DNA of 64,000 nt from Boothiomyces macroporosus (Eukaryota > Chytridiomycota > Chytridiomycetes > Rhizophydiales > Terramycetaceae). The translations under genes and the position numbers were made by a program. This document shows positions 1 through 64,000 of the stretch, piece by piece. The stretch lies in assembly GCA_027604185.1 (NCBI GenBank), contig JADGKB010000026.1, positions 62,001 to 126,000 of the forward strand, given 5' to 3'. Every line of letters starts with the position of its first letter. Positions within the stretch are counted from its first letter, which is position 1. Under the pieces are notes generated by a model. That model worked only from the letters and a program-made list of their open reading frames with translations, was not told where the DNA came from and did not search any database.

Positions 1-2
1 AT

Positions 3-168
3 ATCTCCTTTAAATATTTTAGCCGCAACCAAGGTGGGAACCTTGACTCTCATGAATGTGTTATATTCTTGAAGGGGTTGGAAATTGCAAGAGGATTTGG
101 AAACACCAAAGTAATGGCGAAAAAGAGAGCCGCCAAAGAGTGCCTCGAGTGGATGAAAAACAAGTAAT
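3..168 (+). CDS. dsRNA-binding domain protein, C-terminal end (5' end outside window)
   Basis: The last ~55 residues of a protein that starts left of the window. The segment ends in a double-stranded-RNA-binding motif: a hydrophobic strand (HECVIFLKGLEIA) is followed by the helix signature G-F-G-N-T-K-x-x-A-K-K-R-A-A-K-E-C-L, which matches the dsRBM consensus GxGxSKKxAKxxAAxxxL position for position. The match only holds if one base is ignored in the run of six A at 120-125: the first part reads in frame 3 and the last part (to TAA 166-168) in frame 1. A 16-nt GT-AG intron (111-126) would also restore the frame but would delete four conserved dsRBM positions. So a homopolymer frameshift, real or from sequencing, is the better reading. 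Which dsRBD protein this is cannot be told from the fragment. Confidence 0.6.
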
Positions 169-179
169 AAACATTCTTT

Positions 180-1837
180 CTATTCTTTCTGTTGATTAAT
201 AACACGGAAGATATCAGGTACATTATCAACAATGATTCCATTAATTCCAGCATTCACTTGGATACGCGCATCTTCAATGTTGTTGTTCTTTCCTCCATAA
301 GACAATATGTTTAGCCCAAGGTTTTGGATCTTTTTGATCAACGCTGGACAGTCAATAAGCGGGCCGCAATAAGTAACAACCCCGTCGAGTTTGAAATCTA
401 GAGCTACTTGAACAGCATCGGCCAAACTATTGAGTCGAACATCATAATATTTTTGTGCTCCTGCAACTGTCAAGTAGAAAACAGGATATTTTTTCTATGT
501 CAACTGATATTACCTGTTTCATTCTCAAAAGTAGACACATCTCTGGGTGGAAACTTGAAAAATACAGCTTTCTTTTCCCGGCATTCCTGAACACAACTTT
601 TAGTATTTCATCACAGAATGTGTTGATTTCAGCATTGTTTAATGTTTCATCTTGAGCTTCTTCTAGGTTTGGATATTTTACTTCAATATTAAATCCGGTT
701 TTCAGTGGAACTTTTTGGAATACTTGTAGGAGGGAACAGAATGCAGACTGGATTGTACCTATTTTATTTGTCGTTTACCAGCTCCATTCGGCTTTATGGT
801 TGCCATTTCTACATTCTTGTTGAAATTGGAAGATGAATTCCTTCTAGAAAGCTTGGGTCTATTTCCAACAAAATCATTGAACTTGATATTGGAAACTGGG
901 TTGTGCACACCCCATTCAGTTGTAGTGACTATGGTTAACATTACTTACAATCGTGATAAATGACTGGAATGTGGTCTTGAGTAAGCTGAACATCAAATTC
1001 AACAAATTCAGCTCCAAATTCTCCCCCTTTGATCAATGACTGGACAGTGTTTTCTCCCAATTGCAATCGGGATTTTCCTTCTATGTTGATCTTCCGATTA
1101 GCTCCAGCACCCCTGTGTCCAACTAATACAGTTTTGGATCCACCAAATGGATCTCTCTCATCCGTGCCACCAACACAAGGTTTTACCACAGTGTATTCCA
1201 GGGTAACGTTGCCAATAATACCCATATCGAAGGTATATACTGGGACTTCTAATCTGCCGCCAATTGGCTTTTTTTCGTTCCACAAAGAATCCGGAGTAGT
1301 GTTCAGTTTTTGAACAGCTTTCGCGCACACCTTTCCTCCAACTAAAAAATCAAATTCAATCACCGTTTGCCCCACATTTTCAGTGAGAAAATAAAAGTAG
1401 GATGATACCTTGTCTTTGAAATCTGTGAATAGAATCTCTACTGGGTGCAGATCAATGCTGACTGGCTTGCCCTGCTTGGAGTGAATTTTCAGTTTGAAAT
1501 CTTCTAATCCTTCAACAGAAACTTGCTTTGTATCGTTGCGCAAATCAAAGGAACCCAAATGGCAGGCAATCAAGTTTTCAGAGTTTAATATTTTTCTTCC
1601 AGACAACAATATTTCGGTGGGTGTTTGCAGTACCGGTGCTGGTTTAAACCTTGAATCTGCCCCGATAACTTTGATTAGTTCATGCTGAGCATTATAGACA
1701 GCCAATTCGTACGCTGCTGATACGTTGATATCAGTAGCAGATGAAAGAATTTGGGAAACTTGGTCTTTCATCCCTGATTTGACTACTATCATTTACTAAT
1801 TACCTGCTGCTTCTAATCTTTCTTGATCGCTGGCCAT
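180..1837 (-). CDS. Glycerophosphodiester phosphodiesterase (GDE1/GPCPD1-like)
   Basis: Five exons: 1837-1804, 1785-949, 928-779, 758-514, 494-180, with introns of 18, 20, 20 and 19 nt; 526 aa. The GDPD catalytic domain fills the C-terminal half. It has the GHRGAGAN start motif, the ENT motif after LQLG, and EFDVQLTQDHIPVIYHD carrying the acidic metal ligands and a second catalytic histidine. It hydrolyses glycerophosphodiesters such as glycerophosphocholine to glycerol-3-phosphate plus alcohol. The region upstream of the GDPD resembles the linker that precedes it in yeast Gde1, but the SPX and ankyrin parts of Gde1 are not seen. The start ATG at 1837 is the first in frame. The same frame stays open another ~20 codons upstream without an ATG, so a further 5' exon is possible. 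Transcribed away from the NMA111 gene, with ~260 bp between the starts. Confidence 0.85.
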
Positions 1838-2099
1838 TTTTTGCAGGTAAACACGTTTTGGAATTTCTAGGAAACTGTTTTTGAGGGTAGCAAACCCAAC
1901 AGTTGATGCTCAGTTTTGCTCAATCTCACTAATGAAGGTCAGTGGAAGAACGGCCTCTCAAACTTTGTGGTTGAGACAGTTGAACTGCGAGCTGAGACAG
2001 AGTTTACTTTTAACTATTCACAGGGCATTATAATGATGTGGATAATATTCGGTGTTGACATTAAATTGCATCCTGTCCGCCAAATTTAGTTTGCACGAA

Positions 2100-5071
2100 A
2101 TGGAGAAAGAAAACGGAGATGTGGAAATGGAAGAAGTTGAAGAAATTGCAGCTCCGATTTATAATTCGCCGCAGTGGGAGAATACATTGAAAAAAGCAAT
2201 TCCTTCAATCGTTAGTATTCGATCAATGTCTGTTAGGTCGTTCGATACTGAAACCCAAAGAACTTCCCAAGCAACGGGATTTGTGGTTGATGCGGAATTA
2301 GGGATCATTCTGACAAATCGACATGTAGTTCAACCCGGACCTATAATTGCGGATGCGATTTTCACCCACAATAAGGAGGAAATCAAATTAATCCCTATCT
2401 ATCGGGATCCTGTTCACGACTTTGGATTTTACAAATTTAATGTCAATGACATCAAGTATATGAAAGTAACAACCCTTAATGTAGGTATCCCAAATAAATC
2501 TATGTCCAGAAAATGCCAGGGTTGGGTTGGATATACGAGTAGTGGGAAATGATTCTGGTAAATGTTTCTAATTACAGGTGAAAAATTGAGTATTTTGAGT
2601 GGAACGATTGCAAGATTGGATAGGAAGGCGCCCAACTATGGAATCGCAAATTATTCAGACTGGAACACCTTTTACTATCAATCCGCGTCGATGACATCCG
2701 GCGGTAGTTCAGGATCGCCAGTCTTGGATATTGAAGGAAACGCGGTTGCTTTAAATGCAGGAGGTGCTACGAAATCTGCTTCAAGTTTCTTTTTGCCGTT
2801 GGAAAGGGTAGTACGGGCATTGGATTTCATAAAAAAGAATCTTGCTGTTCCTAGGGGAACTATTCAGACAATTTTCCAACACTCACCTTATGACGAGCTG
2901 AAGAGACTTGGATTAGATTTTGAAACGGAATCTTTTTTGAGGAAAGAATACCCAGATATAACTGGAATGATGGCAGTAAAATTGATCCTTCCAAAAGGAC
3001 CAGCGGATGGATTACTACAGGTAAATATTACTTATGATAGAGTGGAGATATTTTGCTGAAAATCAATGGGGCGATTATCACTGATTTCTTTGCAATTGAA
3101 GAATTTTTTGATTCAAATATCAACCAAACTCTAAAGTTTACAGTGCAACGAGGAAGCCATCAGCTTGAAAGGGATATCAAAGTACAAGATTTGCATTCAA
3201 TTACTCCTGACACGTATGTTGAAGTTGGAGGAGGGATAGTGCACACACTTTCCTATCAAATGGCCAGAAGCTTTATGGTCCCAGTTGCAGGTGTTTTCAT
3301 TGCATCTTCAGGATATATGTTTGGAGAAGGTGGGATCCCAAGGAAGAGCATCATTACAAAGGTGAATAATTTGCCAACCAATACCCTGGAAGAGTTTATT
3401 CAAGTTTTATCGAAATTAAAAGAGTCTGAAAGAGTGCCGTGTCAGTAATTTTATGATAACCTTTAGATTTTACCAACTAAATGATATAAACAAAACCTGC
3501 TTTTCAATTTTGCAAATTGATTGGAGATGGCATTCATTTAGATTAGCGAAAAGGGATGGTAAACATATTGTAATTTAGATGTTACTGGCTACTGGAATTA
3601 TTCAGAGTTGGAAAAATGCTTTGAACCAGCAACGATTTCACCTCAAACTGCCAAATCCTTAGATGTCGATGACACGCTTGGACCTGCAAAATATGTTGTG
3701 AAATCCTTGGTATATGTTCAAGCAACTTTGCCTTACAAGATTGATGGTATCGCCTACCAAAATACTGGAGGTTTCGGATTAGTTCTGGACGCAGAAAAAG
3801 GCTACATTTATGTTAACAGAAAAACTTGCCCAACTAGTATCTGCGACATCTTAGTTACTTTTGTGAATAGCATTATTATTCCAGCCAAATTCGTATACTT
3901 GCATCAGTACGGTAACTTTGCAATCATTCAATATAACCCTAAATTATTAGGAAATACAGTAATAATTCCTAATATAGGTAGTTGAGAGTGCTAGACTTTC
4001 TGATACTCCTTTAGTAAAGGGAGACTCTACTTACTTGGTATGCCTCACAAAGTCATACGAAGTATTGGTGAGAAAAACCATTGTCACAAACATTCGTCCG
4101 TGCTTTGTCAACGAAACACTTCCTCCGACTTACAGACCTATGAATATTGAAGGAATGGAGTTTGAAAACCCAATTGGTCGTGGGGGAGTTTTAGCTAATG
4201 CGAACGGGGAAATTCAAGGCATCCACTCAATTTTCACAAACTACTCTCCAAAAAAGACAACAGACTTTTATATGGGATTGGATGTTGCAATAATTAAGCC
4301 AATTCTAAAAGAACTTCAGAATGGAAAATTGCCCCAAATGCATTGGCTTGAAGCAGAATTAACATACATTCAGATTGCCCAAGCTAGGGTTTTAGGCCTA
4401 AGCTCGGAATGGGTGGAAAAGTTTGAGCATCACGATTCCAAAAGGAGAAATATTCTTTTGATTAGAAGGACAACTTCAGGTAATTCTACATTTACGATAG
4501 AAAGCCCAACTGCTGAGAAACTACTACCTGGAGATATCATATTAACTGTCAAAGGTTGTATTTGCTCTACTTTTAATGATGTGATTTCAAAAATCGACTC
4601 CAATAGTGTTGAAATGGTAAGCTGTTATTAATATTGAAAATTTTGAGGGAAGGACATGAAGTAGACGTAGTATTAAATTTAAATTTAATGAAAACTACTG
4701 GTACTGAAAGAATTGTATCATGGGCTGGTGCAGTCTTCCAAATGCCCCAAATTGCCGTGTATCAGCAAATGCAAAATGTTCCAACGGGTGTGCTGTGTAG
4801 TTTGGTGTCTAGTGGATCTCCTGCAGCGTTGTACGGCATTTCGCCGTTGGACTGGATAGTTCAAATTAATGACACAACCATCACTGATCTGGACTCTTTC
4901 CTTGCAGTACTTTCTGGCATCCCCGAAGATACATTTGTTCGAATTAAAACAATTAATTATCAAAGATTCGAAAACGTTCTGACCTTGAGGACTAATACTC
5001 ATTATTTCGGTCTCTCGCAGCTTACAAAAGATGTGAATGTTTCGTTTGGTTGGAAATTGGAATCTTTTTAA
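2100..5071 (+). CDS. NMA111: Nuclear HtrA-type serine protease with PDZ repeats (NMA111)
   Basis: Eight exons (2100-2465, 2485-2557, 2578-3020, 3041-3444, 3467-3558, 3579-3958, 3978-4616, 4637-5071), 943 aa, the usual length of Nma111p. Fungal Nma111 has two HtrA-like halves with PDZ domains and acts in the nucleus in stress-linked cell death. The first protease half has the full catalytic triad: His in LTNRHVV, Asp in DPVHDFGF, Ser in GGSSGSP. The second half is degenerate, as in the family. Joined exons restore typical family blocks, for example [16 protein letters not shown] across the second intron and DDVTGYW across the fifth. The ATG at 2100 is preferred over one at 2052 because the family-like acidic N-terminus starts there. 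The last intron (4617-4636) ends in TTG rather than AG. Confidence 0.93.
4617..4636 (+). other. Non-canonical 20-nt intron with GT...TG borders in NMA111
   Basis: The exon before ends ...NSVEM and the exon after begins KILREGHEV. The two frames join only if exactly the 20 bases GTAAGCTGTTATTAATATTG are removed. It has the normal length, a normal GTAAG donor and a TTAAT branch-like element, but ends in TTG where its neighbours end in TAG. The next AG downstream (4646-4647) would put the gene out of frame and reach a stop within four codons. Confidence 0.65.
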
Positions 5072-5448: not shown

Positions 5449-7264
5449 ATGGTGATCAAACTCTTTCTTTTGTGCTACACGGTTTATGCTAGTAATGTTC
5501 AACAGCCACTCTTTCAAGCAAGCAGTTCCGTTCGTGAAGAATTTTATGGAGTGAAATTTCTACAACAGGGAACACACTGCACTCAAATATCACCGGTAGA
5601 GCAAGTCCAGCGAAATAACAATGTTGACAAATATCAGCCAGTAATCGCTCTGAAATCACCCGCCATTCGAGATCACCAAGTTTTAGGTTCATCTGCCACT
5701 TTGTTATCAATTATTGGTTTAGATCAAACTTTAGTCAAGAATGAAATAGCAAACCATTGCGAAACTATCGACAGATATATTGAATATGACCTGGACGCAC
5801 TAGAAAATGAAATTGAAGTGGTAGGCATTATTAACCCAGATTGAAATTATCAAAAGCGGTGATCCAAAAAACAGAATCGATGCTGTATTCATGGGCGATG
5901 GGTATACCAAAGATGAACGAGAAAAGTTTATTAGTGACATTAAGCGATTAGTTGATGATATGTGGGCTGGGAATACCTTTGAATCTGTGCTTCCATTGTA
6001 CAATATTTGGGCTGTATTTGTTCCATCAAAGGAGCACGGTATTGGTGTTGGAGGAAAGCCTAAAGACACTGCATTTGGGCTCTACAGAGACGGCACTGAA
6101 TTAAGGGGAATTTATTGCTCAAAGCAACGGAGAGCACGTCAAGTTTGTAAGGCTACCGGTAAATATGCGTGTGACTATCCTACCTTAATTGGGAATGATC
6201 CATACTATGGTGGATTAGGTGGGGAATTTGTGATTTCTACAAGTTCAGAGACTAGTGGAACGATAGTGCTGAGACATGAAATCGGACACAGCATGATTGA
6301 TGTGGGAGAAGAATATGACGGGGGACAAGTTTATTCTGGCTGCAACGCTGCTCATTCCCTTTCTAATATTCCATGGCAGGAATGGCTGACTGAACCACAC
6401 AATATTCGAGAAGAAACCTCTGCCATCAGAGTTCAAGAGTATAATTATTCTAATATAGTTATGCGTGGTATGACCTGGCTAATGGTGACTATGAAATCAA
6501 GTTTTACAGCGGTGGAAAATTTGATACGTGGAAAATGGAAATTAGTTCCAGTGGAGTGGAAGTGCCTGACTCTCTGGAAGTTTATTTTGACGGTGTAAGA
6601 TTGCCTTGGGAAACTACTGGAAATCTTGATCGTGCATTCTCTGCTTGGGAAGGAAAGAACTTGGCAAAAGGTCAACACACTTTGACTTTTAAACAAGGAT
6701 TTCCGCCATCAAATTCAGATTCTCCTATTCGGCAATTGTGCTCTGTAAGATTGCATGAATTTGCAAAAGAACCAGAATTCCACAAGAGCAAATCATTTAT
6801 TGGTGCGTATCCTACCTGGGATATCAATGGAAGAGTATCATATCGGCCAACGAATGATGCTTGCTTGATGCGGGATATGAGTAGAGATACTTTCTGTGAC
6901 GGTATATTGAACTAATGTAGTGTGTGTTGAAGGGCTGTGGGTAAACCTTTTACGTCAACTTTCTTTGATTGACAATGTAATTCAATCGTGTGAAAATTCC
7001 ATCAAAATTCAAGTTGCTACTTTGCCATTAGCCCATTTCAGATCTTCAATCAAGTCCTTCAATGAAAGCTTGTCAATCAACTGGTTTGACAGGGACCATC
7101 AGCCACTAACTCAGTATAAAGACCAATTTACCGTTGAAATTCCCGGAGAATTCTACTCGGATGAATGGACGGTAGAAGTAAAGTTTTGGTCAAGCCAAAT
7201 TCGAGGCAGCTACAAATATCTGACCTCAACCAAGAGCTTTCAAATTTGTTCGGCTACTCAATAA
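5449..7264 (+). CDS. Secreted zinc metallopeptidase, M64 (IgA-peptidase) family
   Basis: Four exons: 5449-5820, 5840-6438, 6459-6901, 6921-7264 (introns 19, 20, 19 nt); 585 aa. It starts with a short hydrophobic signal-peptide-like stretch (MVIKLFLLCYTVYAS), then a less conserved N-terminal domain. The catalytic core starts at DAVFMGDGYTKDEREKF. The zinc site is HEIGHSMIDVGEEYDGG, an HExxH motif with downstream acidic residues, typical of M64. Downstream blocks (VQDYAWYDL, GAYPTW, the Cys-flanked FCDVCVEGLW) match the secreted M64 proteins common in fungi. The likely role is extracellular protein degradation. A parasite or osmotroph could use it for nutrition, but that is inference. The ATG at 5449 overlaps the stop of a spurious upstream ORF. 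Confidence 0.9.
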
Positions 7265-8097: not shown

Positions 8098-8845
8098 ATG
8101 AATTTGGAGGAAAATAGTGACCTATTTAGGCAAAAGTACTTTGATGGATTAGAGGAGCAAGTTAAATTATATCGCACAATTAAGGAACAAGAGCAAGAAA
8201 TTACAAAACTTTCAGACCTCGCTCGAGACCAACAAACTAGAATAGCTGGACTACACCAAGTTATTAGGGCATTGCTGGCAAATTCTCCCACATTCGGTAA
8301 TTGCTCGTTCATTCAGGTCATCAAGCTATTGAACAACTGTCCGAAATTGAGCTCTATGCGATAATTAATGAAATTCTTGTAAATAACCATTATCCTGCAA
8401 TAAGTTTAAATAGAAGACCTGAGCGCAGGGAGTCTATCAACTCTGGTAATAAAAGATTAATCTAGACAAAGTCGAAAGCTCTGGCAGCCCAATCGACATT
8501 TCTCAACTAGTCACAGACAACTACCCTGAACCAGCCAAGGAAATATGTAGCAGATGCCACTCCACTAACTCTTCCCGTTGGGTCAAGTCAGAAACTGAAG
8601 TGCTGTGCAGTAATTGTTCCCATTTGCAAAGTGAAACTGTGTTCACTAAACCAAAGTCAAAGAGGGAAATTACAAAACCAAGCAGCAACAATAGAATATG
8701 TCAGTCCTGTGGTGCTGACAAAACTTCCAAGTGGTATTTAAATCAAGAAGTCAAAGGCACATATTTATGCAATGCCTGCTATAGAAGGAGGAATACCAAA
8801 AAAAAGAATGAAGCTCTGATGAGAGAGCGGGCTGGGTCCTGCTAA
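8098..8845 (+). CDS. GATA-type zinc-finger protein with N-terminal coiled coil
   Basis: Three exons (8098-8296, 8317-8445, 8466-8845) split by two 20-nt introns; 235 aa. Residues ~5-65 form a charged coiled coil (EEQVKLYRTIKEQEQEITKL...). The C-terminal part has two Cys4 GATA-like fingers: CSRCHSTNSSRW...LCSNCS and CQSCGADKTSKWY...LCNACY. The second is the more canonical, ending in the typical LCNACY plus a basic tail RRRNTKKKN. It probably binds GATA sites and regulates transcription. The N-terminal coiled coil and the phase-1 intron after it recur in the unknown protein at 22723-24025. The ATG at 8098 is the first in the frame. Confidence 0.85.
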
Positions 8846-8974: not shown

Positions 8975-9319
8975 ATGTCTCAGGCTGTAGCTCAACAAGC
9001 TCCCAACAGAACTGCTGAAGTCCAACAGCAGGTCAATGAAGTCATTGGCATAATGCATACCAACATTGACAAAGTAAGTGCCCATGGTAATATAGGTAGT
9101 TCAAAGAGGGGAGAAACTAGAAAAACTGGAAGCTCAGACTCAGGAACTTCAGGCTGGCGCATTATCATTCAAGAAAACTTCCACACAGGTCAAAAATGAA
9201 ATGTAATATTTCCTAATTGCAGGTGGTGGAAGAATGTCAAACTAATGGCAATAATAGGTGGGGTAGCTGGAATAATCATAACAATTGCAGTTGTATCCGC
9301 TTTGAATGCTACTCATTAA
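8975..9319 (+). CDS. VAMP/synaptobrevin-type R-SNARE
   Basis: Three exons (8975-9073, 9096-9202, 9223-9319; introns 22 and 20 nt) give 100 aa, the length of short VAMPs. Residues ~10-70 form the R-SNARE motif (PNRTAEVQQQVNEVIGIM ... RGEKLEKLEAQTQEL), with the zero-layer Arg expected in the DKVVQRGEKL segment. A membrane-proximal Trp pair (EMWWKNVK) leads into a single C-terminal TM anchor (IIGGVAGIIITIAVVSAL) and a four-residue tail. It mediates vesicle fusion at the plasma membrane or endosomes, paired with Q-SNAREs. Splicing is needed to join the motif; unspliced, the frame stops. Confidence 0.93.
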
Positions 9320-9375: not shown

Positions 9376-12300
9376 ATGAAAACACTTCAAACTTGGACCG
9401 ACAGAGTAACATGATTTTAAACGTCAGGTTCAAGACGCAAACGGAGTCGCCCAGCCTATCTACGATGTGATATTTATCCAAGATGGGTCGAAAGTTGTCG
9501 CAGCCGCTGGGTCTGAGCTATTGATTTACAACGCGATGGAAGGAAACCTTATAAAGGCGTTAAAGGCTCACAAAGATAGCGTCATTTGTCTTTCGCCGCT
9601 ATTGGGAGGAGGTTTTGCATCTGGCGGTGCAGACAAACAAGTCATCATTTGGTCAAATGTATTTCAAGGAATATTGAAATATTCACATGCAGATACTATA
9701 CAGTCAATTAGCCAAAATCCAGTTACCGGAGTGGTTTTAACTTGTACCGGCTCGGATTTTGGACTATGGACTCCAGATATTAAAGCAGTACCAAAAACAA
9801 AGGTAAACATCCGTAATATAGGTCCCTTCCAAAATATGTTGCTCTTCCTGGTCTCCAGATGGCCAGCAGTTTGCAATTGGGCTATATAATGGGCATATTT
9901 CGATTCGCTCTGTTACTGGTGAGGAGCAAGTCCGAATTGAACGCGGTACGAGCCCAATTTGGTCTTTAGCATGGTCTCAAGCTCCGGATTTAGAGTCAAA
10001 CATCCTTGCAGTGGCTGATTGGTCACAAAAGTTGTCGTTCTTTCAGCTTTCTGGCCGGCAACTTGGAAAAGACAGATATTTGGGGTTCGATCCTACAAGT
10101 GTTTCTTATTTTTCAAATGGAGAATACATTATATTAGGAGGCTCCAACAGAGAAGTAGCCTATTGATTTATGGTAGGTTAATTTGTGGACGGCTGATGGA
10201 ATACAAGTAGGATTGATTTGCAAAAAAGATGGATGGATTTGGTCTTGCAAAGCTAGCCCAACTGCACCATATATTGCTGTAGGAAGCGCCGATGGAACTA
10301 TTTCCCTTTATCAAGTTGTGTTTAATACTGTTCATGGGTTTTATGAAGACAAGTACGCCTACCGTCAAAATCTAACTGATGTTGTAATCCAGAATTTGAC
10401 CACTTCACATTGCGCACGAATTAAATGCAGAGATTATATTAAAAAGATTGCATTGTACAAAGACTGTCTCGCGGTGCAAATTCCGGATAGAGTGATAGTT
10501 TATGAGCTTTTCCATGATGAACAAGGTGACATGCACTATAGGATTAAAGAAAAGATTCACAAAAACTTTGAATGCAATATGCTGGTAGTAGCTTCGCAAA
10601 ACATCCTCATATGTAATGAAAACAAACTACAGCAATATTCAATGGATGGAGAACAGGAACACGAATGGTTTTTTGAATCACCAATCAAGTTTATCAAAGT
10701 CTTGGGAGGCCCAAAACGTAAAGAAGGAGTACTTTTAGGAATGAAAAGTGGAGAGGTTCTAAAGATATTTATCAATAACCCATTCCCAATCAATTTGATA
10801 AAACATTCGTTTCCAATCAGTTGTGCAGATATCAATTTGACTAAAAAGAAGTTGGCTGTTGTTGATGAGCAGAACACTTGTATAGTTTACGATCTTGCTA
10901 CAAAGGATCTCCTGTTCCAGGATCAAAATGTGACTAGCTTGGCTTGGAACGCGGAGCTGGAAGATTCACTATGTCTCTCAGGAAATGGAGAGCTTCAAAT
11001 TAAAGTGAATAGCTTTTTGTCCCACCAACAAAGATTGGATGGACTTGCGATCGGTTTCAAAGGAGCCAAAGTATTTTCTTTGAACAACAACACAATGTCC
11101 ACTATTGATATCCCACTATCTATTCAAATGAATAGGTTTATTGACGATGCTGATTTTCAAGCGGCCTTTAAAATTGCCTGTCTCGGAGTACCTGAGTCAG
11201 ATTGGAAAAAGCTGGCGATGCAAGCAATGGAAAAGCTAGACTTGGACATTGCCAAAAAATCATTCATAAGGGTGAAAGAATACAAATATCTGGAAGCAAT
11301 TAGAGTAATTGAGAAAATGAAGCAGGAAGGACGGAAAGAAACCGATTTGTTCTTGGCAGAGGTCGCTGCTTACTTTGAAAATTATCACGAGGTTGTTTGC
11401 TGTTAATATAGGCGGCTCGTTTATTTAAGAAAAGTGGAAATCCTCAAAGGGCAATCGAAATGTTCACCCAGCTCAATATGTGGGAGAATGCCACCCAAAT
11501 AGCAGAAGAATCCAACGAAAACACCCAGGATATATTAAAGAGAAAAGCTCAAATTCAAGAAGACCGTAATGACACTTTGGCAGCAGCGATGACTTACGAG
11601 CAAGTTGGGGACTATGCCCACGCGATTGAGCTGTTGGGTGTTGGTGGCTGGACCGATAAACTAATTGAAATTGTCCGAAAGTTACCAGGTTCAGAAACGG
11701 ACTTGCTAAACAAATGCGTTGAAATATTCAAAAAGAAAAATAATACAGCATACGCCATTGAAACCTTGAAAAAATCTGGAGACATCTTATCACTATTGGG
11801 GATATATATTTCGCTGCAGCAATGGGAAGAGGTGTTCAAAATTGGGGAAACAAATCCAGAATTTAGTGAGCAAATTTATCTTCCATATGGCAACTGGCTG
11901 GCTATGAACGATAGGTTCGAGGAAGCACAGATATACTACACTAAGGCCGGAAGGGCAGACGAGGCTATTAGGGTTCTCAAGCTCTTATCTGATAATGCTA
12001 TTCTTCAACACCGATACAAGGACGCGGCGTATTATTTCTGGTCCCTGTCAAAAGAAAGCTTGAATTTTAATAGCAAACGGTTTGGGGTAGCACAGAGAGA
12101 CTTCAATATCAATTCAGTTAAAAATTGGAGAACATACTACGACTTGGCAGAAGTTTACTATGCTTATACTCAAATTTATTCATACATTGAAGATCCCTTT
12201 ACATTTTCATCACCGGAATCTCTATTGAACTCTTCAAAGTTTGTGTTGAGCTACATTCTAAACAAACCAAGTGTCCCTGGAATTTCAAAGATTTACACCT

Positions 12301-20100: not shown

Positions 20101-20154
20101 TTAACTTTCGGAGAATTTTTGAAATCAAACACAAGGTGATGTGATATAAATATA

Positions 20155-32008: not shown

Positions 32009-32048
32009 ATACTAGTTCACATTTTTCTAGGCTATCCACAATTTTTAA

Positions 32049-33551: not shown

Positions 33552-33594
33552 ATATATCATTTAAATTTTGCTGTAAGCTTTTACGCGTTTTTAT

Positions 33595-39553: not shown

Positions 39554-39574
39554 TAGATTTTAAAAAAGAAAACT

Positions 39575-47458: not shown

Positions 47459-47552
47459 TTTTTTCCGTTGAAAAATTTATAAAATATAGGTTTATTTTTA
47501 TTTTATAGGCAAAATACATCCCTATATTGATGTGACTATTTATTTAGATATT

Positions 47553-49032: not shown

Positions 49033-49072
49033 AGTGCTAAAACGAAAACGTCATCCAAACTTATTTATTTTG

Positions 49073-50917: not shown

Positions 50918-51230
50918 TTGAGGTTGAAAGTAAAAGTGGGTCAGCGCGTATTGAGATATCCACGGCTTAAACAAGCTGAATTTAAATTGAAAATTACATA
51001 TAAAATTCAAACTGTTTATTTTTCTAAATATACAGAGAGTGACTAGAACATCTCCAACAAGAATTATTCTGCTTTAATTTACTTTCCAGAACTATGAAAT
51101 CACCATTCCAATGGTGTACAAAATTAGAACAATCTGCTGACATGTATCAGTATTTGAACCGATTGTTCAACAAATATTGCATCTTTGCAGAAAGGCTATA
51201 TACTAGTTGTTTGCAATGGGGACTTTGATT
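50918..51230 (-). other. Intergenic gap between copies B and C of family 1
   Basis: About 310 bp, AT-rich. No gene seen. It should hold the promoter of copy B and the 3' end of copy C. Confidence 0.5.
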
Positions 51231-54968: not shown

Positions 54969-55831
54969 ATGTATAATTTGGATGTTACATCGACAATCCT
55001 TTCAATAATATCAACATGCATGTCTATTCTGTGTATTCTAAAATTCCTCCAACCTAATTATCGAAAGAAGGCTACATATCAATGTTTGATAATAATACAA
55101 TTGGTTAGTATAGTAGCAGGAGTATTAAGAAATATATATAATCACGATATTTCGCAATTCGCTATAATCGCAATAGTATTTTGCACGGATTTTGTGGTAA
55201 TTATAGTTTACATAGCTCTATGCTGTTGTATTGCTGGATCTTAATATACTCAAACTCTTTTCTGGAATCGATCCCAGGATTAATACAAAGATCATAAATA
55301 TTGGTATGTATGTGGTTGTTATTTGGGCCATATGGATAGAGCTATCGTATTATATCTATTTGTGGACAGGAATAGGATTCTTGAATACGTGTAGTAATTA
55401 TTTCTATATGGCATATGTTTTTATTGGAGTATTGTACATCAATATCCAAGCAATTTACTTGACCATTCTAATTTATCACAAGCTAAAGAGGGTAACTGCT
55501 GAAACGAGAAAGATATTTAGATTTTCACGTATCTGTATATTATTTATGGTTCTATTAGACTGGGGCAACGTTGGGTTGTTTTTGTGGGGAGCCTTTTCCA
55601 ATGACTGTAACTGTTATTGACTTAGTGAATGTTTCTTACAACTGTGGAAAGCTAAATGTTGCATTCAACGGGATCCATTCTATTTTAGCTTCACTAGTGT
55701 TTGAACAATTCAAAAATATGGTTCAAACGCAAGTTCGAATTATTACTCCAAAAATAGGATATCCACAAGAAGATAAAATCACCCAAACGAATGTTGATCA
55801 AACCAAAGAAATCCAAACTATATCTAAATAA
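54969..55831 (+). CDS. Compact seven-TM protein, array copy 3 (family 2), second intron absent
   Basis: Three exons: 54969-55196, 55216-55606, 55626-55831; 274 aa. Exon 2 is 391 nt, exactly the sum of exons 2 and 3 of copies 1 and 2 (174 + 217), so intron 2 is missing without a trace. Introns are 19 and 19 nt. Marks: CTDFVLYAVVLLDLNILKLF, VLYINIQAIYLTILIYHKLKRVT, MVLLDWGNVGLFLW, GIHSILASLVFEQFKNMVQTQV. The tail carries KxxTQT-type polar repeats. Confidence 0.8.
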
Positions 55832-56173
55832 TCTTGTTTTGTATTCAATTTCCAATCTGGTCGGTAGGGAGTTAGTTGTATTTAACCATTCCTTTGTTGG
55901 GTAAACCGTATTTTAGGAATTGAAATAAAACATTCCTGCAACTTGAAAGTAGTATACAATTTGTAGAAGATTGCGCGGGTTTTATTCTTGATTGTGATGT
56001 AGTATAATGACCTGTGATACAGTATAATGATCTGTGATGTAGTATAATGACCCCATTTTGTTCATCCCAGTGATTAATGCAATTGAAAAAGAATATATGA
56101 TGGCACCGAGCGGACTTATTGTCTGAAATTGTCCTGTCCACAGAGTGTGATGTCACTTTGAATTCATAGAAAC
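55832..56173 (+). other. Gap between array copies 3 and 4 with a 20-bp repeat
   Basis: No gene. Holds the tandem repeat at 55999-56052 (listed separately) and is otherwise AT-rich promoter-like sequence. Confidence 0.6.
55999..56052 (+). repeat. 20-bp tandem repeat, 2.7 copies
   Basis: Units gtagtataatgacctgtgat, acagtataatgatctgtgat and a partial gtagtataatgacc, 120-175 bp upstream of the start of array copy 4. Could be a regulatory module or simple slippage. Confidence 0.85.
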
Positions 56174-56999
56174 ATGAGCGCATTAGAAGCAATATCGTAC
56201 ATTATACTAGGAATGTCAATTGTCTTGTCATCATCAAGCATACTCCATTTTTCACAAGATACTTTCAGAAAGAAACCCATCTATCAATCTTTTATTGTCA
56301 TCCAACTAATTCATATTCTAGACGCGATCTTGCGATTCATTAGCAGGAATAATAACTTGAATTACATTGGCAGTTTCAAATCAGTCTGTACAGACACAGT
56401 TCTTGTAATTGATGTTTGATATAGACTGGACTCATTTTCATTGATTTGAATATTCTTGGACTTTTCGAATGTCTGGATAATCGAATTTCGAGAAAGCGAA
56501 TAGTAATTGCCATCACAACCGTCATCATATGGGCAATCTGGAATGAAGTGATGTACAATCTCGCTACTTATACAAGCAGCACTGTTTACGGAAATGTAGG
56601 TTGTCTTAACCCATAGATGTATTTTTACTCTTACATTGCATTTGTGCTCTCAGGAACTGCATATGTGAATCTTCAAGGAATCTACATTACAAGAATGATT
56701 TATCTGAATTTGAAACGGTTTACAAAAAAAGCGAAATCAAGCTATGTGCTCGCACTTTCCTGTTTATTTATCATGGTATGCATTGACTGGTCGGAAATTG
56801 GACTGTACCTATACCAAAACTCACTTTCTGACGGTAGCTATTTATAATTCTAGTTGAATCTCAGTATTATATTGGGAACATTGTTATTTCAATGACGGAT
56901 TTGCATTCTATACTTGCTTCTCTATTGTTTGAGCAATTCAAAGGGATGATCTCGTCGCAAGTAGAAAAGCCAAATCGTCGAGAAATAACTGTTGTTTAA
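56174..56999 (+). CDS. Compact seven-TM protein, array copy 4 (family 2)
   Basis: Four exons: 56174-56404, 56425-56595, 56617-56833, 56854-56999 (231, 171, 217, 146 nt); introns 20, 21, 20 nt; 254 aa. The first splice site has moved by three bases relative to copies 1-3, with the sum of exons 1 and 2 unchanged at 402. Marks: LIFIDLNILGLFECLDNRI, AYVNLQGIYITRMIYLNLKRFT, MVCIDWSEIGLYLYQ, DLHSILASLLFEQFKGMISSQV. More diverged than copies 1-3. Confidence 0.78.
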
Positions 57000-57047
57000 T
57001 TATTAAAATCTTGCTATTATTCCTTTGGTGATGTAATTTCTTACTTC

Positions 57048-57399
57048 ATGACTCCCTTAGGCGTGCTGGCGTATATTGTAGCATCATTCTCTTTCATACT
57101 GTCCGGATTAACCGTTTTTTATTACATGCAGTCACAATATCGAAAGAAGCCGCTATATCAAGCTGTTGCAATAATACAAATATTTCACTTGACTGGTTTA
57201 ATAGTAAGGTTAGTTTACAGAAATGTAAATCCTCCATTGATCGGTTGCATACGCGCAATATGTGTTGATTCAGTTCTGGTGCATATTTACTAATTCTATC
57301 CTGGCTTCGTTTCTCTTTGAACAATTTAAAAAAATCATTTCTACGCAACTCAAACAGTCTACTCCAGTCAACCCGATTATCAAGGAAGCAAGAAATTGA
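57048..57399 (+). pseudogene. Truncated copy 5 of the compact 7TM family
   Basis: Begins like an intact member (MTPLGVLAYIVASF...IYRN-like VRLVYRNVNPPLIGCIRAICVDSVLV), but right after the exon-1 end it jumps to the last block (NSILASFLFEQFKKIISTQLKQ...) and a stop at 57397-57399. About 450-500 bp covering TM3-TM6 and exons 2-3 are missing. The joint lies near 57278-57300, at the exon-1 donor (ctg|gtgcat). Two TM segments and the tail remain. Probably a deletion by unequal recombination within the array. Confidence 0.8.
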
Positions 57400-57507
57400 C
57401 CAATAGAAAATAATATATACCACTACAAAGAGTGAATTTCTTTGAGAATTTCTATAGAATGTTTGCTTAATCATTATTCTTTATTCAGTCTGGAAACGTC
57501 ACTTTTC

Positions 57508-58383
57508 ATGAGCGTTTTGCAAATCATATCAGATGGGATAATGCTGCTAGCTTCTTTATCATCGCTTGCATGCATAGTAAAATTTCTACAAAAGCAATAT
57601 AGAAACAAGCCAATATACCAAGGAATTATATTCATTCAAATTGTCAACATTGGCGGGGCAACTATCCGAGCAATAACAAAAGAAAATATATCCAATATTA
57701 TGGAGTGCTTCCGATCATTCTGTACAGATTTTGTTTTGATTGGAGTGGTACTTGTGGATTTGAATATCTTGTGTCTCTTTAAATGTTTAGATGACCGTAT
57801 CAATATCAAATTTATCCAACTTGGAATGATTGCTGCAAGTATATGTGCATTGTACTTGGAAATTACTTTTGATTTATATTCTTTGACTGGATTTGAAATA
57901 TTCAATGATGTAAACCATACTAACAAAAGTTGAATGAGTATCCATATCTATTTTATGTAGTTGGTGGAGTCTTGTACATCAATCTGCAAGCTATTTACTT
58001 GACAAGATTGATTTTTTTGAATTTAAAAAGAGTTACTCCGGAAGCCAAGAAAGTTTTGTACACTGCTGTAGTTTGTATAGTCTCAATTGCATTACTGGAT
58101 TGGGTAGGAGTGGGGATTTACGTGTTCCAAATAGTCTATCCTAATAGTACCTACAATTAATCTAGTTGAAAACAATTATTATCTTGGAGATATTAATATC
58201 TCGATAAATGGGTTTCATTCTATCGTTGCTGCATATTTGTTTGAACAGTTCAAAAACATGATCCAAACACAGATAAAGAAAAATGTAGAGCCACCTACTA
58301 AAAAATCAAAGAAACACAAAGTATATCATAGTCATTCAAAGGTAAACCACAGTCATTCCAAGGTAAATGTTACAATTCAATAA
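57508..58383 (+). CDS. Compact seven-TM protein, array copy 6 (family 2), first intron absent
   Basis: Three exons: 57508-57909, 57930-58146, 58166-58383; exon 1 is 402 nt (228 + 174), so intron 1 is cleanly absent, while exon 2 keeps the 217 nt. Introns 20 and 19 nt; 278 aa. Marks: CTDFVLIGVVLVDLNILCLFKCLDDRI, VLYINLQAIYLTRLIFLNLKRVT, ALLDWVGVGIYVF, GFHSIVAAYLFEQFKNMIQTQI. The tail has a repeated basic HSHSKVN unit. Confidence 0.8.
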
Positions 58384-58574
58384 TATCCCATTTTTCTTTT
58401 TAGTTTTCTCTATAAATTCATTTCCTTGGCAACATTCTAGGTTTGTGACAAGCTAAAAACATTGGTGTATAAATCCGCTATATAATTTCAGTTTCAATTA
58501 AAAGTAATTTGTACTCGCTTGTTCCAAACAATAAAAGTGTTCTAAACAATGACGATTATATCCTTTTTTCCCTA

Positions 58575-59417
58575 ATGGATCCTTTGGGAATATCTTCATA
58601 TGCAATAATGATACTTTCAATAACCATATCAGTAATTGGAATTGCTAGATTTTTAAAAAAGAATAATCGCTGTAAATTAAATTATCAGAGTTTGATTGTT
58701 ATTCAAATAATTCACATCCTAGGAATTGTATTACGGTTTATATTTCAGATTGAATACCCTAATTACATTGAGGTTATCAAAGGAGGATGTACCAATTTTG
58801 TGTTGTTTGGAATAGTCTATGTGGATTTAAACATTCTGAAATTGTTTTCAGTGCTTGACAGTCGTATCAATACCAAGCTTATTGACTATGCGATCTTCTC
58901 CATCATGATATTATTTGTGTGGGTTCAAACTATCTTCTCGCTAAGCACTATGCTATCTGATCCAGTATACTACAAGGTAATTTGGGTTTAATCTAGCTAT
59001 ATTTCTATCCTTTTGTGGTATTTGTAGTTTGTGGACTTTTATACATCAACTGCCAAGGAGTTTTCTTGACATTTCTAATTTACAAAAATCTCAAATCAGT
59101 TAACCAAAATACGAAATTGGTTTTAAAAGTATCGATATTAATATTGGCTTTCATGGTGATCCTAGACTGGCTTAACTTTGCGATATTTTTTATGGAATTG
59201 GATGTGGACAGTAATTGAAGTTAATCTAGCTGTCACAGATTACTATCTAGGAAACTTTAATGTATCGATCACCGGCATTCATTCAATTGTTGCATCACTT
59301 TTATTTGAACAATTCAAGAATTTAGTCCTCACTCAGGTAAAGAAACCCACTTTGATTATAAAAGCAAACTCTGCCAAAGTGCAGCCATCTTTTTTACCAT
59401 CTGTAACTAAAAGATAA
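58575..59417 (+). CDS. Compact seven-TM protein, array copy 7 (family 2), first intron absent
   Basis: Three exons: 58575-58976 (402 nt), 58997-59210 (214 nt), 59230-59417; introns 20 and 19 nt; 267 aa. Marks: CTNFVLFGIVYVDLNILKLFSVLDSRI, LLYINCQGVFLTFLIYKNLK, MVILDWLNFAIFF, GIHSIVASLLFEQFKNLVLTQV. The sequence around TM2-TM3 is nearly the same as in copy 8 at DNA level, so the two come from a recent duplication. Confidence 0.8.
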
Positions 59418-59543
59418 TCTGTATACATTTTGTTTATCGTGCTTTTATCTTGGCATTTCGCTAATTCATTTCTAGCATACATTGTCACTGAATATAATGT
59501 TGGGCTGTTCTGTTTTATCAAACAATGACTACCCTTTTACAAA

Positions 59544-60389
59544 ATGAGTGCGCTTGGCATCTCCTCATATGCAATCATGATACTTTCAACAGCTACCTCA
59601 TTAACCGGAATCGTTAGGTTTTTAAAAAAGAGCAATCGTTCCAAATTAACCTATCAGAGTTTGATTGTTATTCAGATAATTCACATCTTGGGGATTGTTT
59701 TGCGATTCGCATATCAAATGGAATACCCTAATTATATTGAATTAATTAAAGGAGCGTGTACCAATTTTGTGTTATTTGGAATAGTCTATGTGGATTTAAA
59801 CATTCTGAAATTGTTTTCGGTGCTGGACAGTCGCATTAACCCCAAATTGATTAATTATGCCATATACATGGTCATTTTCATTTTATTCTGGATTCAGATA
59901 ACTTTTTCTGTGAATACCATGATATCTCTTCCGATAGTCTTCAAGGTACTTTTCGCGTAATTCAGCTATATTTCTATCCCTTTGTAGTATTCGTTGGGTT
60001 AGGACTGTTATACATCAACTTGCAAAGTATTTTCTTGACATTCTTGATTTACAAGAATCTCAAATTGGTAAACCAGAAAACCAAGTTTGTGTTGAAAGTA
60101 TCCATATTAATACTGGCTTTCATGGTTGTATTAGATTGGTTTAATTTTGCTCTATTCTTTATGGAATGGAATGTTGACGGTAAATGAAATTAATGTAGCT
60201 GTCTCTTTTTACTACATGGGGAATTATAATGTATCAATCACTGGCATTCATTCTTTTATGGCATCGCTTTTATTTGAACAATTCAAGAATCTGGTTATGA
60301 CTCAAGTAAAGAAACCCACTCCAATTAAACCAATCTCTGATAAAGAAACCAAAGTACAAGCACCAACTTTCCCTTTGCAAATTAATTAA
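59544..60389 (+). CDS. Compact seven-TM protein, array copy 8 (family 2), first intron absent
   Basis: Three exons: 59544-59945 (402 nt), 59966-60179 (214 nt), 60199-60389; introns 20 and 19 nt; 268 aa. Closest to copy 7 in every exon. Marks: CTNFVLFGIVYVDLNILKLFSVLDSRI, LLYINLQSIFLTFLIYKNLK, MVVLDWFNFALFF, GIHSFMASLLFEQFKNLVMTQV. The tail is Lys/Pro/Thr-rich. Confidence 0.8.
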
Positions 60390-60779: not shown

Positions 60780-60795
60780 GTTAATTTTTTTTCTA

Positions 60796-63700
60796 ATGCA
60801 AAATTTGAAATCAATTCAAAGCGCAGTTCTGGATGAAAATAATGTTCAAAAATATCTTGAAGTATTCACAGATACTGAGCATGACTATAATAGAATATTC
60901 AGGAATCAGCTGCTTCAGAAATTCAAGAAATTCTACAAGCAAGATATTACCATGTGGGATGCAATCAGACCGCATTGGATTCGTGCGATAAATAGACCCA
61001 GAGATCTTCAATATTATCAGCAATTTAATGTTTTACTATTAATTTTCCTTGATTCGAGTTTTGGTTTGCAAATCATTTCAGATACTAGACACACAGTTAC
61101 CACAATCTTACAGGAGGAAATGGATAGATTTGAAGACTTGGATTTATTCTTGTTCTTGAAGCCATTAGTGGCTTTGATTACAAAGACAAATATTCAAATC
61201 GACTCTGAAAAATATTTGGAATTTGGCTTGAAATCCTTGGACAGTTCATTGGAATCCAGATTACTTGCTAGTGTGCTTGTTGGAACTATACTATCCAAAT
61301 ACACTACAACTCCTATTTCGGTTTCAATCAAAGCCATTTCAAATGCAGATTTCGAATCAAGTAACAACAAAGAGTTGGAGATGCTAAGAAGGCATTCAGC
61401 CAATGTAGAAAAGCAAATATTACTGATTGGTGGTATATTGCAAAGTAATCCACACAGCCTCCTTGAATTACCTGTTGAATCATTCCTGTCACTTTACAGC
61501 ACTCTAAATACCTTAATCGTTACACATAGCGAATCCAAAGTACAGACATTTGGATTTCAAGCATTGTCAAGGTGGTATCAAGTTGCCATTTTAAAGAAAT
61601 TTGAGCCGTCGCAAGAAATTATTATTCAATCGTTGCTCTTAATCTTGGAAAAGTGGGATGATTCTGCGGTATCTCAGCAAAAGTTGAGGTAAAGTGAAAC
61701 TTACAAAAGGGAAATATTTGCAAGTATGATTGATTTGGTTTTATCTGGTAATGAATTATTACGTTTCATTACCGAGAAATTGTCAAAGATATACCAAAAG
61801 AAAGTCAAATATGATTTACTTACTATTTTAGCAACTAAAGTTCCATCTGAACTATTGTTTGAACTGGATCCGAATCTGCTGAAAAGTACCTTTCAATATT
61901 TAGATCGGCCATCTTTAAACCAATCTGCGGCAGCATTCATTGTTCATGTATTAAAGAAATTGGTGCAAGATAGGCAAGATATTAAAAAATTCAGCTCGTT
62001 AATGATTGATTCGCTTGTTGGAAAGAATGCAGTCATAAGGAAATATACAGCTGAACGAATTTTACCTGTTTACGCAAAGTTGGATTTTGAAGGATTGGAA
62101 ATGGTAGCAACCGGAATCGAACCAGATAATGAGGTATCTTTAGAAGCAATCGTTTCGTGCATGAAAGTTGCAAAAGGCTTGGGGAAAACTTTGGAACTCA
62201 AATCAGGCAAATACGGTGATATAACCCAAAATAGTATTATATCTGCAATACCAAGATTGCGATATCAAGCTTTTTGTCACATAACTGAATCGTCAAAAGC
62301 TAATCAGGATGTCACAGAACGAGAAATCTTTGTGGTTATGCAATTTTGGAAGTTGGATGGGTGTGGAGAAACAGTAGATTTTAGACAGCAAATATCATCT
62401 ACGTTCTCCAAGTTTTTTGAAAGGTTAAAACGAAGCATTTACAAAAACGAAAGAGATATATTGACACTAGAGAAAAAGTTGTCGAATAAGCCGGAATTGT
62501 CGAGTGAAATTCAGCCAATCCTGGATGCTACGATTAGGCAAAGAAACTTGAAAACAGAATTCTTTACTTGGATCTTTAATGATGCGTTAAACAACCTCTA
62601 TCCAGGATCGTCATTCCCAAGAACCGTAGGATCAATTATTATTCTCGATTTACTTGATCAAACTGATAAACTAGTGGTAGATGTTTCTGCATCGCTCAAA
62701 ATACAGCTATTTGAATTCAACTCTTCAAAGATATTTCAAATCATATTTTCAAGGATTGTATTTGACACTTTTGGTGATAGCAGACGGGATTTGCTGACAT
62801 ACTTAAAAAATAATGATTTACCAAAGATGGAATATGGAACTCCAAGTTTTTGCCAATACTTGATGTCCAAAGTGTACCAGCTGTTTGCTAGCAAACGCGC
62901 CGCAGATTCTGATTCTGCTGCATATATTTGTAGAATTATATATATAGAATATGTATCAAAGCAAAATCTATCGTTGCGTGATGTAACCGTAATCAGCCCA
63001 AAAGTAGACTTTGTTGATTTATTGATTGAAAAACTTCAGAATCATGTGGATTTTGCCCAAAAAGATCTTGTTGGAGCCTCAGTTACTCATCCACTGAACT
63101 CGATTCTTGCTTCTATTCACAATGTTTTGCAAGAAGTCAAGTTTGACAACTGTGCAGAATGGGAAAAGACATTGAAAAACTTGACAGAATTATGCTTTCA
63201 AGTATGCAAAATTTGTCAAAAGGTTTGCTCTGATGCATCCCCAGAAGGAAATTTACCTGCGGAAGTAGAAACCGACCCTGAATCAAAGGTTGCCCAAATT
63301 TTACTTCGACACTGTTTTAGGTCAATCAAGCAAGCTACCGATTGCATTTCATTTATTGCAGGCGTTTTGCTGAAATTGCGGCATCCATCTGGATATGAGT
63401 ATGTCAAAAGAGCTGGGGAATTATTTTCAGAACTGCTGACAACTGTTCGACACAGAGGTGCATTTAATTCTGTTCAAGAAAACTTATCCATTGTTTGCAA
63501 GATTGTCTCTTCAAAACGAGACTTTTATCATTTGCTTCAGCAATGGCTTGATGTAATTATCTTTAATGATAGAACTTTATCAATCAAATTTCTAGTTTGG
63601 AAGTATCAGTAACAAGAAGGAGTGCAGGACTACCTGCAGCCATCCTGGCAATTATTTCTGCTCCAAGCAACGACCACAAAGCGGCTTTCCTTCACTACAC

Positions 63701-64000
63701 TATTGAAAAGTTGATCGCGATTGCACAAAATCCCGTTGATTCGAAAAAGATTGTCCAAATTGATTTGCCTCAAGTTCACGCAATGAATGTACTTCGAATA
63801 CTTGTATCCGACTCTGAACTGACTACAATCACAAGAGATTACATTGGAACCTGTTTCGAAATTTGTATTTTGCAATTCAAGAGTGATTATTTTCCAATTA
63901 GAAACTGCGCAGCAATGTTGTTTTCATCACTGGTCAACAAAGCGTTTGGAACAAAGAAAACAAAATCGGAAGGTGAATTTGTCAATTTGGTGTTTGCTAG
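60796..64000 (+). CDS. TRM732: THADA/TRM732-type tRNA 2'-O-methylation cofactor (3' end outside window)
   Basis: Exons 60796-61688, 61710-63552 and 63573 onward, running off the right edge (introns 21 and 20 nt); more than 1050 aa visible. A large helical-repeat protein. Conserved landmarks appear in order: SSFPRTVGSIIILDLL, LLRHCFRSIKQATDCISFIAGVLL (DUF2428), GELFSELLTTVRHRGAF, then across the second intron VSVTRRSAGLPAAILAIISA and PQVHAMNVLRILVSDSEL...FPIRNCAAMLFSSLV. In yeast Trm732 works with the methyltransferase Trm7 to modify position 32 of the tRNA anticodon loop. The ATG at 60796 directly follows the 7TM relic. Confidence 0.92.

Follow-up and report, generated by a model that had tools for sequence, protein, structure and literature searches.

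Introns of about 20 nt, with longer exceptions in RPL7 and NOG2, in the chytrid fungus Boothiomyces macroporosus

Narrowly sized populations of tiny spliceosomal introns have been described with lengths of 16–17 nt in mikrocytids, 18–21 nt in nucleomorphs and 15–16 nt in heterotrichs (available sections of PMC10245619), and the shortest intron of Trichomonas measures 23 nt (available sections of PMC12316389). Because the earlier tiny-intron populations come from relict nuclei, from reduced parasites and from giant ciliates, unusual machinery or decaying genomes could be held responsible for them. A literature search, mostly of open-access sources, found among the papers listed no report of comparable introns in chytrids or other fungi, and the available sections of PMC13391722, PMC5364385 and PMC7466969 contain no intron lengths of such kind. 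The introns described here are those of a 64-kb window (the whole stretch presented, bases 62001–126000 of contig 26) from the 15.2-Mb, 216-contig assembly of Boothiomyces macroporosus, a genus which the NCBI taxonomy places in Chytridiomycota, Rhizophydiales, Terramycetaceae. A sequence-only reading of the window had restored 89 introns of 18–24 nt in 28 genes and considered a nuclear fungal genome made only of such introns. The four examples it cited (2466–2484, 9803–9821, 32688–32706 and 59211–59229) match its description exactly and read GTAACAACCCTTAATGTAG, GTAAACATCCGTAATATAG, GTATTTAATTTTAATATAG and GTAATTGAAGTTAATCTAG. On the sequence evidence set out below, the segments are, with a probability of about 0.9, genuine U2-type spliceosomal introns whose length has contracted to roughly that of their combined signals.

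The window was analysed together with 20 further 10-kb stretches, taken from contigs 1–20, giving 264 kb from 21 contigs, and a purpose-written two-strand gene finder was applied to all of it; gene-finder counts refer to these 264 kb unless the window is named. The flat model, which used end dinucleotides only, no further splice motif and an equal cost for every length of 6–400 nt, called 45 GT-AG introns of 18–24 nt, all of them within 19–23 nt (19 nt, 15; 20 nt, 19; 21 nt, 6; 22 nt, 3; 23 nt, 2), and no GT-AG intron at 13–18 nt. Decoy end pairs yielded 7 (CT-AC), 5 (GA-TG), 12 (TG-GA), 3 (CA-TC) and 7 (AC-CT) calls of 18–24 nt, of which 26 out of 34 overlap a called GT-AG intron and hence bridge the same frame break. 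Below 18 nt, 7 GT-AG calls stand against 5–14 for the decoys, and at 25–50, 51–100 and 101–400 nt the GT-AG calls number 20, 15 and 100 against 20–30, 27–43 and 98–116 for the five decoys. As the surplus over decoys is seen at 18–24 nt only, the excess is restricted to the tiny class. Long calls of the gene finder were not accepted as introns, since some engulf two tiny introns or fuse neighbouring genes and the class total does not exceed the decoys.

In the trained model, donor, branch and acceptor motifs as well as a length prior were learned from calls. With lengths unrestricted to 400 nt it called 337 introns, 303 of them of 17–26 nt; held to 16–27 nt it called 311, of which 301 measure 19–22 nt and two fall below 19 nt (17 nt, 1; 18 nt, 1; 19 nt, 88; 20 nt, 130; 21 nt, 55; 22 nt, 28; 23 nt, 4; 24 nt, 1; 25 nt, 2; 26 nt, 1). 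Across 209.8 kb of called coding sequence this amounts to 1.48 introns per kb. Four decoy pairs gave 42, 58, 17 and 66 calls, with 8, 8, 2 and 9 located more than 60 nt from any called GT-AG intron; given so few distant decoy calls, false calls are estimated at a few percent. Candidate non-canonical ends comprise 10 GT-TG and 6 GC-AG calls, several with a well-placed branch motif (further GT-TG candidates with good branch motifs being, e.g., L012 9419 and L024 358). Neither is claimed as a general class because other pairs are equally frequent (GT-TT 16, AA-AG 13, GT-GA 10).

Introns were also placed by homology only: proteins were aligned to the DNA with the same cost charged for every intron of at least 8 nt. 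Public homologs chosen were 20 of at least 120 listed for IFT122, 12 of at least 120 listed for NMA111 and 9 of 10 for CFAP61. Three IFT122 introns were recovered in 20 of 20 homologs, from Globomyces through shark, alongside one frameshift and a single extra call, of 65 or 18 nt, in each of two homologs. NMA111 yielded seven GT-AG introns of 19–22 nt, each in 10–12 of 12 homologs, and CFAP61 seven of 19–22 nt, each in 3–8 of 9:

2466..2484, + strand: NMA111 intron 1, 19 nt, GT-AG (a cited example); 10/12 homologs, the two misses being Boothiomyces database models without the next exon
2558..2577, + strand: NMA111 intron 2, 20 nt; 10/12 homologs
3021..3040, + strand: NMA111 intron 3, 20 nt; 12/12 homologs
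3445..3466, + strand: NMA111 intron 4, 22 nt; 10/12 homologs
3559..3578, + strand: NMA111 intron 5, 20 nt; 11/12 homologs
3959..3977, + strand: NMA111 intron 6, 19 nt; 12/12 homologs
4480..4500, + strand: NMA111 intron 7, 21 nt, frame unchanged, missed by the gene finder; 11/12 homologs
4617..4636, + strand: putative NMA111 intron 8, 20 nt, GTAAGCTGTTATTAATATTG, ending in TG instead of AG; homology, with ends chosen by eye to fit the reading frame
9406..9427, + strand: IFT122 intron close to the start codon, 22 nt; homologs P0001, P0008 and P0025, the others aligning from downstream or without it
9803..9821, + strand: IFT122 intron, 19 nt (a cited example); 20/20 homologs, including animals
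10155..10176, + strand: IFT122 intron, 22 nt; 20/20 homologs
11392..11411, + strand: IFT122 intron, 20 nt; 20/20 homologs
41333..41351, + strand: CFAP61 intron 1, 19 nt; 4/9 homologs
41425..41443, + strand: CFAP61 intron 2, 19 nt; 4/9 homologs
43113..43132, + strand: CFAP61 intron 3, 20 nt; 8/9 homologs
43240..43258, + strand: CFAP61 intron 4, 19 nt; 8/9 homologs
43529..43548, + strand: CFAP61 intron 5, 20 nt; 8/9 homologs
44413..44432, + strand: CFAP61 intron 6, 20 nt; 7/9 homologs
44566..44587, + strand: CFAP61 intron 7, 22 nt; 3/9 homologs, also P0121, with a frameshift at 44588 instead in 4/9

When the dinucleotide rule was dropped, most gap lengths came back unchanged. Decoy end pairs on NMA111 (three pairs, two homologs each) scored lower in all cases; two of them force frameshifts, and GA-TG forces none but requires more gaps and odd lengths of 14–28 nt. 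Near 4617–4636, the sole fitting GT-led segment ends in TG. Without the dinucleotide rule a 20-nt gap with shifted ends lies nearby in 3 of 3 homologs, and under the GT-AG rule a 14-nt gap at 4608–4621 is placed instead in 10 of 12. This homology-backed, putative GT-TG intron at 4617 is the only non-canonical one claimed. Among four tandem paralogs at 55–60.4 kb, all four copies agree in the alignment column and phase of the second intron and three in those of the first, the fourth copy having one elsewhere.

In an anatomy set of 304 introns, the consensus comprises donor GTA(A)TT, branch YTAAY and acceptor YAG, at an AT content of 71%. Donor positions +3 and +4 are A in 279 and 190 introns, and +5 and +6 are T in 139 and 176. 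The A of the best branch match, the presumed branch point, lies at +14 (134) or +15 (126) from the donor in 260 introns, and at −6 (145) or −7 (105) from the acceptor in 250. Position +5 is G in 45 of the 304 tiny introns; the three long-intron donors described below read GTAAGG, GTAAGA and GTAAGT. As the U1 5' end reads ATACTTACCTG, tiny introns would pair with U1 best over +1 to +4. Hallmarks of the U2 type are present, namely GT-AG ends and signals complementary to U1 and U2.

Ten components of the splicing machinery were sought and all were found: U1, U2, U6, PRP8, SF1, U2AF65, SLU7, PRP18, CWC25 and ISY1. Two U2 genes share the canonical branch-pairing stretch GUGUAGUA (GUAGUA, unchanged), and the single U6 gene contains ACAGAGA. 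The U2 copies (L002, L003) have diverged; both score above the Rfam cut-off, and several non-standard pairs lie in the 3' part of the second. Over a stretch of 1153 residues PRP8 can be aligned to its human counterpart end to end, SLU7, PRP18 and SF1 are present, and so is U2AF65, with an exon match under the curated cut-off. Read from the methionine of MGGGDLNLKKSWHP, CWC25 is identical to its human counterpart across 14 residues, glycine plug included. Since SLU7, PRP18 and the plug of CWC25 are all retained, these factors of branching and step two show no loss or alteration of the Stentor or mikrocytid type. CWC25 occurs at two loci (L041, L042; contigs 49 and 100), both near contig starts and with identical open-frame listings, pointing to a duplicated region or separated haplotypes. 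The spliceosome genes themselves carry tiny introns, of 21, 20 and 23 nt in SLU7, 21 nt in PRP18, 19, 20, 19 and 19 nt in U2AF65 and 20 and 19 nt in the part of PRP8 covered. In the U2AF65 model, one call of 253 nt was discarded as an intron; it fuses a neighbouring gene, its first part being a different protein. The spliceosome changes for which the sequence-only reading suggested a check find no counterpart in the ten components, in which no specialisation is visible, and the splicing machine appears conventional as far as tested. In yeast, SLU7 and PRP18 matter less when the branch is close to the acceptor; by this logic both could have been lost here, yet they are kept, perhaps owing to the long introns.

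A genome of tiny introns only must have lost or moved its introns hosting small nucleolar RNAs (snoRNAs). RPL7 and NOG2 were chosen as a test for long introns, and both genes, picked for an expected long intron, carry one. RPL7 (contig 1, locus L029) has introns of 122 and 22 nt and probably a first one of 220 nt (L029 1056–1275); the alternative is a start codon within this stretch, as the gene finder chose. The 122-nt intron contains a C box GTGATGA and the guide ACCATCTTTCGGGA preceding a D box CTGA, 13 of the 14 guide bases agreeing with the snR39 consensus. The Rfam snR39 match reaches 25.5 bits (E 0.029, 561 bases searched), under the gathering score of 40, and is overlapped by SNORD2 at 23.3 bits; no Rfam family reaches its gathering threshold at the RPL7 locus. 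The intron appears to carry an snR39-like C/D RNA. The probable 220-nt intron has a stable fold (z −2.80), possibly a further RNA; up to E 1, Rfam gives no separate match to it.

Five introns, of 20, 19, 21, 152 and 20 nt, interrupt NOG2 (contig 63, locus L039). Fungal snR191-type H/ACA snoRNAs of the NOG2 intron are defined by two hairpins, a hinge ANANNA, an ACA tail and guide pockets; the 152-nt intron has an H/ACA-like fold of two hairpins flanking ACATTA, with CACAATC past the second (z −3.58), and matches no Rfam snoRNA family. A microRNA-family match in this intron was rejected at 18 bits against a cut-off of 65 bits. Aligned to solved structures, the spliced RPL7 and NOG2 proteins continue gap-free across the junctions of the 122-nt and 152-nt introns, and both long introns terminate like the tiny ones, in CTAAT-NNN-AG. 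In these two genes, longer introns seem to have escaped shrinkage where they harbour an RNA. Ordinary introns occupy a narrow band (301 of 311 at 19–22 nt), like the bands near 15–21 nt of the nucleomorph, heterotrich and mikrocytid minimal-intron populations, and longer introns exist in the same genome. The proposal of a genome made only of tiny introns is contradicted by the 122-nt (probably also the 220-nt) intron of RPL7 and the 152-nt intron of NOG2, while its core, ordinary coding-sequence introns of 19–22 nt with a branch-like A nearly at the acceptor in a nuclear fungal genome, is retained.

A 6-base 5' splice site, 4–5 spare bases, the 5-base YTAAY, 2–3 spare bases and AG would add up to 19–21 nt, and the length floor of 19 and mode of 20 nt fit an intron pared to its footprints. 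U1 would pair with the first intron bases and GUAGUA of U2 with YTAAY, presumably at the same time. Branching would yield a lariat loop of 14–15 nt with a tail of about 5–6 nt, and the exons would be ligated at the AG directly after the branch. From this anatomy, the spliceosome would act with minimal spacing. A spliceosome of conventional parts would excise the tiny introns, and the same parts would also remove the few longer ones, which may have kept their length because of their snoRNA cargo. Deletion pressure down to the functional floor could have produced the population. Whether every cargo-free intron in the lineage has been cut to bare footprints, and an unmodified spliceosome including SLU7 and PRP18 routinely makes 14-nt lariats, is an evenly balanced proposition. 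If true, signal footprints instead of special machinery would determine how short an intron can be, and length would single out those introns of this genome that carry functional RNA.

Several points weigh against an interpretation as minimal introns handled by conventional machinery. Motifs and length prior of the trained model derive from the same model's own calls. The one U1 gene scores 68.8 bits, slightly under the Rfam cut-off of 69.5, and the conventional finding covers ten components of the machinery. In the free-boundary alignments many ends move by a few bases and some lengths change (16, 24 and 29 nt, in single homologs), and divergent CFAP61 homologs have unshared gaps of 21–153 nt, each in a single homolog, along with some frameshifts. 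Introns of the tandem paralogs have diverged no more than exons (second introns alike at 12–16 of 19 positions, the flanking exon at 46–91 of 120), which rules out that they are unrelated in sequence; being about as alike as exons, they support shared position only. Since the case for introns is drawn from DNA, the frame breaks might be attributed to sequencing indels, programmed frameshifts, translational bypassing or elements excised at the DNA level. Such an origin is exceedingly improbable in view of the GT-AG excess over decoys, the branch motif at fixed spacing, the positions shared by paralogs and the complementarity to U1 and U2, on which grounds sequencing indels, frameshifting and excised DNA elements were rejected.

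Real introns could also be removed by a specialised spliceosome, altered beyond the ten components (U5, U4, the ISY1 start, YJU2, U2AF35 or helicases). A loop of 14–15 nt is far under the usual, and the available sections of the Stentor study report a changed CWC25 plug and ISY1 N-terminus, with SLU7 and PRP18 undetected. In the present genome, ISY1 was judged without its N-terminus. Such a machine is nevertheless unlikely: all ten components were found, the pairing stretches of U1, U2 and U6 are canonical, the start of CWC25 equals the human one over 14 residues, and the same cell must also splice introns of 122–152 nt. A biased sample, in which tiny introns would be just the majority class of ordinary coding sequence and many more longer ones would reside in untranslated regions (UTRs) and in ribosomal and nucleolar genes, is doubtful but retains a modest chance. 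Both genes picked for a long intron had one, and coding-based callers detect introns inside coding sequence only, UTR introns being invisible to them; against this, GT-AG calls at 25–50, 51–100 and 101–400 nt do not exceed the five decoys, among which a handful of real ones could hide.

Within the window, 72 or 71 GT-AG introns were called de novo depending on model version, all of 19–22 nt. The two sets differ at 1783–1803 and at 47063–47083 versus 47070–47090, and homology adds 4480–4500 (21 nt, frame unchanged) and 4617–4636 (20 nt, GT-TG). The tiny length band first reported was thus recovered, and the count of 89 introns in 28 genes was not reproduced. Of the called 21-mers, 47 of 51 contain an in-frame stop, compared with 145 of 247 at lengths of 19, 20 or 22 nt. 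Introns of 3n length without a stop are under-called because the caller needs a reason to cut; the bias suggests about 80 true 21-mers and, being traced to the caller, provides no sign of 3n lengths being avoided. A true window count of 80–90 introns is plausible. That no longer intron is needed in the window agrees with the present results, as none is clearly needed and lengths to 400 nt gain just 31.6 log units overall. The ten window calls of 29–393 nt made under this setting include at least three (135, 368 and 255 nt) that fuse separate genes and a 29-nt one that displaces the GT-TG intron; the other six are gene-finder calls alone.

IFT122 shares 90% identity with Boothiomyces sp. JEL0866 and 66% with Globomyces, and compared to Boothiomyces sp. 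JEL0838 identities are 97.1% over 1030 aligned residues for CFAP61 and 99.0% over 909 for NMA111. Among the matches listed, window proteins are nearest to Boothiomyces and Terramyces; IFT122 and CFAP61 are ciliary genes. Two public Boothiomyces NMA111 proteins are missing most conserved residues of the exon between introns 1 and 2; of its 31 query residues, just the final 7 match in one and the final 13 in the other, and in all ten other chytrid proteins compared at least the last 24 residues match. The CFAP61 model of JEL0838 lacks the exon after intron 1 and that of JEL0866 a later one. Conserved exons between two tiny introns are absent from the public Boothiomyces proteins P0121, P0122, P0131 and P0132. 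Other tiny introns are correctly spliced in public models, and small introns are therefore implicit in existing annotation; caution is advised, as some public gene models in the group drop conserved exons flanked by two tiny introns. Further intron-bearing genes of the window are the following:

183..1837, − strand: GDE1-like glycerophosphodiesterase; introns 495–513, 759–778, 929–948 (1783–1803 in one set only); Pfam GDPD, 147 bits, spliced protein
5449..7261, + strand: Peptidase_M64 gene; introns 5821–5839, 6439–6458, 6902–6920; gene finder, Pfam
8098..8842, + strand: gene; introns 8297–8316, 8446–8465; gene finder
8975..9316, + strand: synaptobrevin gene; introns 9074–9095, 9203–9222; spliced protein gap-free against VAMP2 over both junctions
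13008..15643, − strand: gene; intron 13996–14015; gene finder
16349..18319, − strand: gene; introns 17123–17141, 17325–17343, 17509–17528, 18006–18025, 18238–18258; gene finder
18596..22127, − strand: two genes; introns 18913–18931, 19892–19910, 21784–21803; gene finder
22726..24025, − strand: gene; introns 22961–22979, 23194–23213, 23365–23384, 23533–23551, 23820–23838; gene finder
31362..35502, + strand: three genes including cytochrome P450 (32049–33548); introns 31800–31819, 32688–32706 (a cited example), 32932–32951, 33703–33722, 34165–34184, 35071–35089, 35427–35445
37575..40706, − strand: gamma-tubulin-complex-like gene and a second gene (weak PPR match); introns 37992–38010, 38461–38480, 38614–38634, 39266–39284, 39469–39487, 40111–40129
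45112..50999, − strand: genes; introns 45363–45382, 45542–45563, 45841–45862, 46427–46447, 47063–47083 (or 47070–47090), 48360–48381, 50976–50997
55020..60386, + strand: four tandem paralogs; introns 55197–55215, 55607–55625, 57910–57929, 58147–58165, 58977–58996, 59211–59229 (a cited example), 59946–59965, 60180–60198
60796..64000, + strand: gene extending past the window end; introns 61689–61709, 63553–63572; gene finder

Gene model 45112–47458 resembles a tyrosine recombinase by eye (HTLRKTGY...), possibly of a mobile element, and has no Pfam match. The tandem family at 55020–60386 consists of four membrane-protein-like genes (by eye) with two introns each; one copy was tested in Pfam and gave no match.

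A minimal-intron genome with conventional machinery, as far as tested, and apparently cargo-bearing exceptions would be striking for a fungus. In such an organism the minimum size of a spliceosomal intron becomes directly testable, and JEL strains are cultured. Introns longer than about 30 nt would serve here as a filter for candidate hosts of functional RNA. The following comparisons refer to the available sections of the papers cited. In other fungi, the RPL7 intron hosts an snR39/59-type C/D RNA and the NOG2 intron an H/ACA-like RNA (PMC8476143); the corresponding introns here, with an snR39-like RNA and an H/ACA-like fold, are outsized exceptions among introns of about 20 nt. Mikrocytids (16–17 nt) share the narrow size range and conserved sequence, but are parasites with a reduced spliceosome (17–19 proteins found) and 224 introns (PMC10245619); in B. 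macroporosus about 1.5 introns are called per coding kb, and the parts list is conventional as far as tested. The heterotrich Stentor coeruleus likewise has uniform tiny GT-AG introns, all 8806 annotated ones being of 15 or 16 nt, and canonical U1 and U2 pairing stretches (PMC9505925). Its branch A is at +10/+11 in place of +14/+15, its branch consensus is weak compared to the strong YTAAY found here, and SLU7 and PRP18 were not detected and CWC25 lacks the glycine plug motif (PMC9505925), all three being present in B. macroporosus. The chlorarachniophyte nucleomorph has a near-identical narrow range (18–21 nt) and many introns per genome (PMC10245619); that nucleomorph, however, is a relict endosymbiont nucleus, whereas the present introns belong to the nuclear genome of a fungus, 15.2 Mb in size, which also has ciliary genes and longer, apparently snoRNA-bearing introns.

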